A stretch of 45,265 nucleotides of DNA from an uncultured Thomasclavelia sp. Its GTDB lineage: Bacteria; Bacillota_I; Bacilli_A; Erysipelotrichales; Coprobacillaceae. The stretch spans positions 1 through 45,265 of the forward strand of contig NZ_CALUXO010000028.1 in assembly GCF_944324745.1 (NCBI RefSeq). The letters are read 5' to 3'. Below, one piece after another: positions 33,591 through 38,666 of this stretch (the first letter of the stretch is position 1; the number at the start of each line of letters is the position of its first letter). The translations under genes were made by a program, and so were the position numbers. Under the pieces are notes generated by a model. The model made no database searches, was not told the origin of the DNA, and saw only the letters and a program-made list of their open reading frames with translations.

Positions 33591-33666
33591 TCTATCATAC
33601 TCCTTTGAAAAATCATTATACCACAGAATAGAATTATGTTATAATCTTTTGCGAGGTGATATACAT

Positions 33667-34473
33667 ATGCATAAATTAGCATGCCCTAAATGCCATGAAC
33701 CAATTGAACAAATTGATAATTCTTATAAATGTATCAACAATCACTGTTATGATTTAGCTAAATCAAAATATTTAAATTTATTATTAAATCCTGATAAAGC
33801 TTCTAACAACCCAGGTGATAGTAAAGAAAGTCTAATTGCCCGAAAAGCTTTTTTGACTAAGGGTTACTATGATGTCATCTTAAATAGCGTCATTGATACA
33901 ATTAAACAATATCAAACTGTTGATGATTTAGAAATTTTAGATTTGGGTTGTGGTGAAGGATATTATACATATGGACTAAAGCAGGCATTTAAACAAGCCA
34001 ATGTTTATGGTCTTGATATTTCCAAGATTGCTGTTAACATGGCTACTAAATATACCAAAGACATTTACTGGTTAGTTGGTAATAGTAAAAATATACCAAT
34101 TTTAGATCATTCTTTAGATTTTGTCACAGCACTATTTACTGTTGTCAATCAAAATGAATTACAACGAGTGTTAAAACCAGGTGGTTATATTATTCATGTT
34201 ACAGCTAACAGCAATCATTTAATCGAAATTAAAGAATTGATCTATGATGAAATCAAGGTCAAAAGTGATAAATTTATTCGTCTAGGCTTTAATAAAGTTA
34301 GTTCATTTGATCTTGTCAAAAAGATTCACATCGACAATAGAGAAGATAGTTTAAATTTATTAAAAATGACACCACATTACTATCACATAAAAAAAGAACG
34401 CCGTAGCGTTTTAGATACTTTAAACACTTTAGACGTCACAATCGATGTTAAAATAACGGTATATCAGACATGA
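33667..34473 (+). CDS. rlmA: RlmA-type 23S rRNA (guanine-N1) methyltransferase
   Basis: 268 residues from ATG 33667, which has GAGGTG upstream (an ATG at 33649 lies before it). N-terminal zinc finger CPKC with CINNHCYD, then DLAKSKYLNLLL, typical of RlmA. AdoMet motif LDLGCGEGYYTYGL (about 100-113), later LDISKIAV and LKPGGYIIHVT. Relatives methylate G745 or G748, the latter giving tylosin resistance. Its 3' end overlaps the convergent DUF1294 gene by 26 bases. Confidence 0.9.
   Translation: MHKLACPKCHEPIEQIDNSYKCINNHCYDLAKSKYLNLLLNPDKASNNPGDSKESLIARKAFLTKGYYDVILNSVIDTIKQYQTVDDLEILDLGCGEGYYTYGLKQAFKQANVYGLDISKIAVNMATKYTKDIYWLVGNSKNIPILDHSLDFVTALFTVVNQNELQRVLKPGGYIIHVTANSNHLIEIKELIYDEIKVKSDKFIRLGFNKVSSFDLVKKIHIDNREDSLNLLKMTPHYYHIKKERRSVLDTLNTLDVTIDVKITVYQT
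34388..34410 (-). terminator. Probable terminator of the malic enzyme operon, inside rlmA
   Basis: Minus strand AACGC, TACG loop, GCGTT, then C and seven T. It lies within the coding end of the convergent rlmA gene. Confidence 0.55.
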
Positions 34474-36623: not shown

Positions 36624-37595
36624 TTAATAAGGAACCTGTGTGCTTTCACCACAGCCACTACAATGATACCCAATTACTGTTTCGTCAACCCAAACATCTC
36701 TTTCACGATAATTAGGGGTAGTGCTCGAATGATCTTGGCACCAGTCATAGTGTCCTCCGTTAGGATTTTTACAATTATCACAAATATAAACCACATATTC
36801 TTCCTTTTCATAATGTCCTGGTACTACATCCACAACCCAAGTATGCTGATGCACAGGTGGGATTGGCGTTGTGCTTTGGTCATTATTACTTTGGTTATTA
36901 TTGTTTTGATTATTTTGATTTTGGGTATTATTATTTGTTTGATTGTTATTATTTTGACGATTAGTTTCTTCTTCATCTTCATCGTCTTGTAAATCTGCTG
37001 GTAAAACTGGATTTTCTATTTCTTCCGTTACTTCTTCATTAGTGGATCCATCAGTTTTAGCAACAATTTCATTATTATTATTGTAAACGACGTTTCCAGC
37101 ATCAGCTAAACTTTGTGCTTCTTCTAAAGAAATCACCATGATTTTTTTATTAATATTAATATTTTCGACATCATCACTATTAGATTTAGCTTCTTTTAAA
37201 TGCTCAGCCAGTTTTTCACTATCAGCTCCAACTGTATATGTGATTTCATAGGTGCCTAATGCCGCTAAATCCACGTTAGAAGCATCAACATTAACATATT
37301 TAATGATATCGCCATTACATTGGATATTATGGAAATAATCAATTCCTTGGGCATTTTGAACGACATAACGATCAGTTAATCCGGTTATCAAACCTTGTAA
37401 ATCACTTTCCTGATGTTTCTTGGGTTCTTTAACCGTATTTTCTAATTCATTTTGATATTCTGGCTGATCGGCCATATAAATATATAAACAGCCACCGACT
37501 AAACCCACAGCTAATACAACGGATACTATTGATACTATGATTCGCCGTTTTTGTGATGACCAAAACAATCTTTTAATCTTTCTACTAAATCCCAT
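36624..37595 (-). CDS. Membrane-anchored surface protein with Ig-like and Cys-rich domains
   Basis: 323 residues. Basic start, one membrane segment (about 19-41, N-in), then outside: an Ig-like stretch resembling DUF5011 (about 75-122, with ALGTYEITYTV), an acidic part (202-210), an Asn/Gln-rich spacer (213-239), and a C-terminal Cys/His-rich domain (248-323) with CDNC (272-275), H282, C286, H289 and CSGC (312-315), probably zinc-binding. No enzyme motif. RBS AAGGAG. Function unknown. Confidence 0.78.
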   Translation of the reverse strand: MGFSRKIKRLFWSSQKRRIIVSIVSVVLAVGLVGGCLYIYMADQPEYQNELENTVKEPKKHQESDLQGLITGLTDRYVVQNAQGIDYFHNIQCNGDIIKYVNVDASNVDLAALGTYEITYTVGADSEKLAEHLKEAKSNSDDVENININKKIMVISLEEAQSLADAGNVVYNNNNEIVAKTDGSTNEEVTEEIENPVLPADLQDDEDEEETNRQNNNNQTNNNTQNQNNQNNNNQSNNDQSTTPIPPVHQHTWVVDVVPGHYEKEEYVVYICDNCKNPNGGHYDWCQDHSSTTPNYRERDVWVDETVIGYHCSGCGESTQVPY

Positions 37596-37761: not shown

Positions 37762-37867
37762 GCTATAAACGGGAAAAGCCCCTTGAAACAAGGAGCTTTA
37801 AATATCTGTATTCTATATACGGGAAAACGAATACTATTATAGATATTTGGGACATGTTTATAATAGC
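37762..37867. ncRNA. Candidate structured RNA with a three-way junction
   Basis: P1: GCTATAAAC (37762-37770) with GTTTATAATAGC (37856-37867, two extra bases). P2: AAAGC-CCCTTG with CAAGG-GCTTT (37775-37799, one mismatch). P3: AAATATCT-GTATTC with GAATAC and AGATATTT (37800-37848), a 6-base bulge and 15-base loop. ACGGGAAAA occurs at 37769 and 37819. Either strand possible; minus would be a leader of the Cys-rich gene. Confidence 0.45.
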
Positions 37868-37905
37868 ATATAATATGTAAAAATGTTTTCAAATAATGAA
37901 AATCT

Positions 37906-37924
37906 ATTTTCATCAAATGAAAAT
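37906..37924 (-). terminator. Weak terminator of the thioesterase gene
   Basis: ATTTTCAT pairs with ATGAAAAT around CAA, just after the stop; T content after it is modest. Confidence 0.45.
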
Positions 37925-37928
37925 TTTA

Positions 37929-38666
37929 TTAATAGTTTTCTAGATACCCACCAAATTCAAAAAAAGTTAATTGCTCATCCAATGATTTAAAGACAACTTT
38001 AGCATAATCATCATCTAAATAACAATAAATTTTGGCTTGAGTATTTGGAGCCATTTCTTTTTTGAAAAAAACACTAATTTCTCTAAAATATTGATCTTTA
38101 AATACCTCAAGAGGAATTACATCTAGCGCCCATTCAATATAACGACTATTATTCATATGTAAATTAACATCTACATCACTATATAAGACACTTCGTGTCA
38201 TCATATAATCCAATTTGAAATCATCTTTGATATCATGATAACTATCGATACTATATTGATATTCTTTTAATTCTGGCATTACAATTCCAATCTTTTCTGG
38301 TTTAGTAATTCGTCGTTTCTTTAAATCTATTAAAGTCCACAATGAATAAATAGCCGCAATTTCATTTCCTTGTTCATCTTCAATCCAATAATTACGAATA
38401 AATTGAATTCTTTTTCGACCGGCTGCTCTAGTATATAGTTTTATCTGTTCGTCGATTTTTATAGGACGTTTGAGAATAATGGTTTTCTTAGCCAAAACAA
38501 AGCCATAATTAGCTCCTAAAGACGGTTTCCAAATTCCCACTTTAATAGCATTTTCAGTTGCCAAATCTGATAATTGAGAAACCAAAGTACTCATTCGATA
38601 ATTACCGCAATAATCGGTTTCTTGATAAGTTACTTTTACCTCTAAACTAGATAATAAATTTTCCAT
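37929..38666 (-). CDS. Acyl-ACP thioesterase
   Basis: 245 residues, two hot-dog folds. N-terminal half: YQETDYCGNYRMSTLVSQLSDLA and FVLAKKTIILKRPIKIDEQI. C-terminal half holds the active region SDVDVNLHMNNSRYIEWALDV with Asn and His. Releases fatty acids from acyl carrier protein; common in gut Firmicutes. Chain length not readable. Its start follows TGAGGTGATGG. Single gene. Confidence 0.92.
   Translation of the reverse strand: MENLLSSLEVKVTYQETDYCGNYRMSTLVSQLSDLATENAIKVGIWKPSLGANYGFVLAKKTIILKRPIKIDEQIKLYTRAAGRKRIQFIRNYWIEDEQGNEIAAIYSLWTLIDLKKRRITKPEKIGIVMPELKEYQYSIDSYHDIKDDFKLDYMMTRSVLYSDVDVNLHMNNSRYIEWALDVIPLEVFKDQYFREISVFFKKEMAPNTQAKIYCYLDDDYAKVVFKSLDEQLTFFEFGGYLENY

Follow-up and report, generated by a model that had tools for sequence, protein, structure and literature searches.

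What kind of element lies at positions 37762–37867 of contig NZ_CALUXO010000028.1, from an uncultured Thomasclavelia sp.? The window is the whole contig (45,265 nt). A preliminary description of this intergenic stretch had proposed a three-way-junction RNA that, on the minus strand, would lead a gene for a Cys-rich surface protein. Its helices, its repeat and the GGGA following P3 are all present in the window sequence. P1 joins GCTATAAAC (37762–37770) to GTTTATA-AT-AGC (37856–37867) in nine pairs with an AT insert; P2 joins AAAGCCCCTTG (37775–37785) to CAAGGAGCTTT (37789–37799) in ten pairs with a C–A mismatch on the plus strand; P3 joins AAATATCTGTATTC (37800–37813) to GAATAC-[TATTAT]-AGATATTT in 14 pairs with a 6-base bulge. 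The two copies of the repeat, TATA(A/T)ACGGGAAAA, are spaced by 50 bases, at 37765 and 37815. Comparison with relatives arranges these parts differently, and the locus most likely encodes a short (~88-base) regulatory RNA on the minus strand, with the following features:

37929–38666, minus strand: acyl-ACP thioesterase gene (Pfam PF01643/PF20791), the upstream neighbour
About 37854–37923, minus strand: putative promoter of the small RNA (sRNA), comprising a −10 element and a palindrome at fixed spacing
37907–37923, no strand assigned: second palindrome TTTTCATCAAATGAAAA, centred at −62; found in eight copies, all in the genus of the window
37886–37902, no strand assigned: 17-bp palindrome TTTTCAAATAATGAAAA, centred at −41, where a −35 box would be
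37860–37868, minus strand: extended −10 element TGCTATTAT (−15 to −7), of the form TGnTATnAT; 25 of 27 copies have it at this spacing to +1
About 37766–37853, minus strand: proposed sRNA of ~88 nt, with +1 at 37853 (the G of GUCCC) and a 3′-end at about 37766–37771
37836–37853, minus strand: single-stranded 5′ tail GUCCCAAAUAUCUAUAAU with the first UCCC motif; 18 positions (nearly) invariant across 27 species
37808–37834, minus strand: hairpin 1, stem GUAUUC (37829–37834)/GAAUAC (37808–37813), loop GUUUUCCCGUAUAUA with the second UCCC
37771–37799, minus strand: intrinsic terminator AAAGCUCCUUG-UUU-CAAGGGGCUUU followed by a U-run; a hairpin in essentially all 28 copies

Anatomy of the proposed small RNA

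The minus-strand reading, which agrees with the strand originally picked, follows from three observations. The U-runs come after the hairpin on this strand, the P2 mismatch becomes a G–U pair (giving 11 pairs, and the first hint of strand), and a promoter-like match on the plus strand lacks conservation. From 5′ to 3′, the minus strand carries one or two palindromes, the extended −10 element, the +1 and tail, a 6-bp hairpin and an intrinsic terminator. The start is placed where conservation sets in sharply at a G, 7 nt past the −10 element, and the 3′-end is placed from the terminator stem and U-run. At the sequence level the gene is free-standing, apparently with a promoter and a terminator of its own. 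The predicted minus-strand transcript (89 nt) folds with a z-score of −4.9 (0 of 200 shuffles as good), and the transcripts of eight relatives, making nine species with the window, score between −3.6 and −5.4.

Sequence and comparison together establish the anatomy of the putative transcript. In 27 genomes, both the 5′ tail and the loop of hairpin 1 carry an unpaired UCCC motif, and these two segments are conserved over 18 and 11 nt, respectively, with almost no substitutions. In a diverged copy, L083, the UCCC core is retained while other loop bases differ. Hairpin 1 consists of 6 bp closed by a GUUUUCCCGUA loop. Its stem cells are paired in 96.5% of cases, compared with 19–74% for slid controls, and the search for compensatory changes that had been suggested as a check found them here, in L033 (GUAUUU/AAAUAC) and L083 (CAUUCG/CGAAUG). 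The hairpin is nearly invariant and covariation support is thin, coming from essentially two lineages.

The terminator stems are unrelated in sequence between genera, still pair, and are followed by a U-run. They were picked as the best hairpin in each copy, and their independent support comes from the fold z-scores. A third UCCC, scored in 9 of 28 copies, lies in the terminator loop of seven members of the genus and of the diverged L034 and L083, whose loops both read UUCCCGU; a second copy in T. cocleata makes ten by eye, and the terminator loop of the window itself contains none. A short leader peptide was also considered for the conserved block. The frame GTG/ATG TCC CAA ... CCG TAA is open, but its start reads TCG or CCG in five genomes, all codon positions are equally invariant and diverged copies have insertions (by eye), and this candidate was rejected.

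The junction itself did not survive comparison. Across 28 copies, pairing between the stretches homologous to P1 did not exceed that of shuffled sequence for most relatives, and the right arm of P1 is the −10 promoter element, which lies upstream of +1 and outside the predicted transcript. There is therefore no conserved three-way junction, and what stands of the original proposal is a real, conserved RNA candidate whose P2 is the terminator. The inner six pairs of P3 are the conserved hairpin, with its C-rich loop (the complement of ACGGGAAAA). Only the genus retains all or nearly all of the outer half of P3 (8 of 14 pairs); some other genera have four to six of these pairs, and several have none. 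A cis-regulatory multi-helix aptamer was accordingly set aside, with P1 unconserved and the outer half of P3 restricted to one clade. The 50-base repeat is likewise confined to the genus: its second ACGGGAAAA copy falls within the tail that follows the terminator stem, and an alignment of the copies did not find the repeat to be common to relatives outside the genus.

Predicted promoter and candidate regulator site

The sequence TTTTCAN5TGAAAA is present at the −41 spacing as an exact match in 21 of 27 copies, with near-matches or 1-base shifts in the rest, and probably binds a regulator at the position otherwise taken by a −35 box. Within the genus, the −62 palindrome lies two helical turns (21 bp) further upstream. 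The half-sites (window 37886–37923) fit the T-N11-A form of LysR-type regulator sites. A wider regulon defined by the palindrome was examined and rejected: the genome contains 8 such sites, the reversed control gave 4, and the matches listed in the genus, at 0–1 mismatches, included no further promoter of this architecture. A further exact copy of the palindrome sequence lies elsewhere in the genome (L088; G000:C46:14740–14756).

Distribution and copy number

A nucleotide search of 98 related genomes recovered the region from all members of the genus and many members of the family. In their alignment, TGTATTCT..TACGGGAAAACGAATACTATTATAGATATTTGGGAC (plus strand) stands out as almost invariant between diverging flanks. 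A covariance model built on the 5′-terminal 61 nt of the predicted RNA detected the sRNA in 27 of 43 sampled Coprobacillaceae genomes, spanning 11 genera, at 43–87 bits. Applied to 294 genomes of the order, the same model did not find it outside the Coprobacillaceae; elsewhere in the class it returned only 30-bit matches (E about 0.07), which were treated as noise. Viral contigs yielded no match, and a phage origin was discarded on this ground. A pattern scan of named genomes located the sRNA in Thomasclavelia, Massilimicrobiota, Candidatus Stoquefichus, Longibaculum and Beduini, among others.

The sRNA is normally present as a single copy per genome. T. cocleata, placed in the Coprobacillaceae, has two copies 2 kb apart. 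Its second copy (L016:3021–3117, minus strand) has an identical 5′ half, a weakened terminator, and CGATATTAT in place of TGATATTAT. A remnant of the 3′ half of the sRNA, comprising the terminator and half of hairpin 1, was found 2.5 kb from an intact copy (L011:2505–2565), and a weak match in L014 resembles this remnant. The L034 copy (L034:4999–5099) is found at another locus without the thioesterase gene, and has a 4-base insertion in the tail besides its UUCCCGU terminator loop.

Relationship to known UCCC-containing RNAs

In line with the preliminary description, no Rfam family is matched by the window at gathering thresholds. Relaxed searches of the window, L013, L019 and L083 returned only weak, mutually inconsistent sub-threshold matches. 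On the minus strand, the rimP leader (RF01770) scored 34.4 bits in the window against a cut-off of 47, and 19.8 bits in L013, and was absent from L019 and L083. This sub-threshold likeness is probably driven by the terminator, and no rimP gene was identified downstream of the sRNA. The LhrC and RsaE/RoxS models gave no match up to E 5 in the same four sequences, and the known UCCC RNAs have no detectable sequence relation to the sRNA. The sRNA family seems to be real and apparently undescribed, and is probably of a functional kind already known.

LhrC of Listeria is a 111–114 nt RNA present in several copies, with UCCC motifs in a loop, a single-stranded region and the terminator loop; it does not require Hfq to act on lapB, where its three UCCC sites are able to bind a G-rich region ahead of the start codon (PMC4132741). 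The sRNA described here is of similar size, has a comparable UCCC layout in stem-loops that end in a terminator, and in T. cocleata is likewise present in more than one copy (two). It differs from LhrC in that the single-stranded UCCC precedes the hairpin, at the 5′-end, only about a third of copies have UCCC in the terminator loop, and one copy is the norm. RsaE/RoxS of Staphylococcus and Bacillus pairs with G-rich stretches of mRNAs through several C-rich regions (PMC5419742). It resembles the present sRNA in its C-rich regions, in being one gene conserved across related genera and in having a regulator site at the promoter; however, the Rex site lies just downstream of the RoxS start, whereas TTTTCAN5TGAAAA is centred upstream, at −41 (PMC5419742). 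In other Rsa RNAs and RNAIII of S. aureus, accessible loop UCCC motifs are thought to target Shine-Dalgarno sequences (PMC3861533). The open UCCC loops are a shared feature, although the sequences, sizes and hosts are different (PMC3861533).

Proposed function and alternative explanations

Since the layout is that of the LhrC/Rsa RNAs and Hfq is not detectable, the sRNA is probably a trans-acting antisense RNA that controls translation initiation. The UCCC motifs of the tail and hairpin loop, and in some species also that of the terminator loop, would pair with the G-rich ribosome-binding regions of several mRNAs, and this pairing would block translation, as in LhrC and RsaE. A regulator bound to the palindrome would switch the sRNA on or off under some condition. 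As no Hfq gene was found, the sRNA would act without this chaperone: no homologue was detected in the G000 genome assembly (95.6% complete), while control genomes gave matches.

Searches for complementary sites give this reading one striking case, without enrichment or recurrence, and yielded no target set. In G005, the sequence TATTCTATACGGGAAAAGGAGGAAGTTATG (L121; G005:C1:2615052–2615073, minus strand) contains a 17-nt perfect complement to hairpin 1 of the sRNA of the same genome, directly before a GGAGG ribosome-binding site. The gene that follows encodes an exported glycosidase-like protein (GH2 beta-galactosidase-like by eye). This is the best target candidate, and it may be a chance match, because a comparable 16-nt match in G003 (L194) lies on a strand that is unable to pair with the nearby gene. 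Near start codons, sequences complementary to the loop or tail were not enriched over reversed-pattern controls, and neither the tail complement nor the longer loop complement was clearly enriched. In nine genomes, ACGGGAAAA before ATG was mostly inside coding frames. Also counting against the antisense reading, the 18-nt conserved tail is longer than a simple UCCC seed needs.

No described regulatory sRNA turned up in literature searches on the Coprobacillaceae, a family of common gut bacteria that includes Thomasclavelia, Massilimicrobiota, Stoquefichus and relatives. With its clear promoter, regulator site and loops of anti-Shine-Dalgarno type, such a family-wide sRNA would offer a defined entry point to post-transcriptional control in this group. 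It would also be a further example of the UCCC strategy, here with an unrelated sequence and no need for Hfq. A more ambitious proposal, which we regard as unlikely, is that this is a core regulatory RNA of a family in which Hfq is not detectable, with an 18-nt 5′-end that serves beyond seed pairing and a regulator site that replaces the −35 box. If so, the invariant 5′-end might, for example, bind a dedicated RNA chaperone or a second partner RNA.

The near absence of substitutions in the 18-nt tail and 11-nt loop, together with the lack of target enrichment, would also be consistent with an sRNA that mainly binds protein, as a decoy or scaffold, the invariant segments being protein contacts. 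This is rather improbable, as UCCC in loops is a known hallmark of sRNAs that pair with Shine-Dalgarno sequences in low-GC Gram-positive bacteria (PMC4132741; PMC3861533). Moreover, L083 keeps the UCCC core where other bases of its loop change, and the motif reappears in the terminator loops of L083 and L034.

The gene order bears on two further alternatives. The thioesterase gene adjoins the sRNA in nearly all genomes, with its stop codon 80–460 nt upstream of the sRNA core, and was not found beside the sRNA in L034. On the downstream side, genomes differ in which gene family adjoins the sRNA and in the orientation of that gene, often opposite to the sRNA, so that no same-strand downstream gene is consistently associated with it. 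A cis-acting leader (riboswitch or attenuator), in which a ligand or factor would choose between termination and read-through into the downstream minus-strand gene, is suggested by the order of promoter, structured RNA and terminator before gene 36624–37595 in the window. It is nevertheless very improbable and already largely refuted by synteny; neither P1 nor any outer pairing able to compete with the terminator is conserved. For the Cys-rich surface protein gene in particular, a terminator intervenes, and the variable downstream gene and the other locus of L034 argue against a leader.

The thioesterase stop codon just upstream in nearly all genomes, with no separate terminator noted between it and the sRNA, would suit a 3′-UTR-derived sRNA cut from the thioesterase mRNA and ending at a shared terminator. 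We consider this origin highly improbable, given the dedicated promoter conserved at fixed spacing, and the existence of two copies (L034 and the second of T. cocleata) without a thioesterase gene directly upstream. Least credible of all is a conserved DNA element (a recombination, replication or segregation site) with incidental hairpins, which would fit the nearly single copy per genome and the AT-rich dyads around 37857–37923, but not the terminator hairpin and U-run kept while the sequence changes, which point to RNA, the fixed-spacing promoter abutting the conserved block, or the two T. cocleata copies 2 kb apart. A dif-like recombination site was rejected for unsuitable arm spacing.

The antisense sRNA favoured here has a further recurrent neighbour: a gene for an RlmA-type 23S rRNA guanine methyltransferase with a Zn-ribbon RlmA domain, at 33649–34473 in the window, lies near the sRNA in many genomes of the family.
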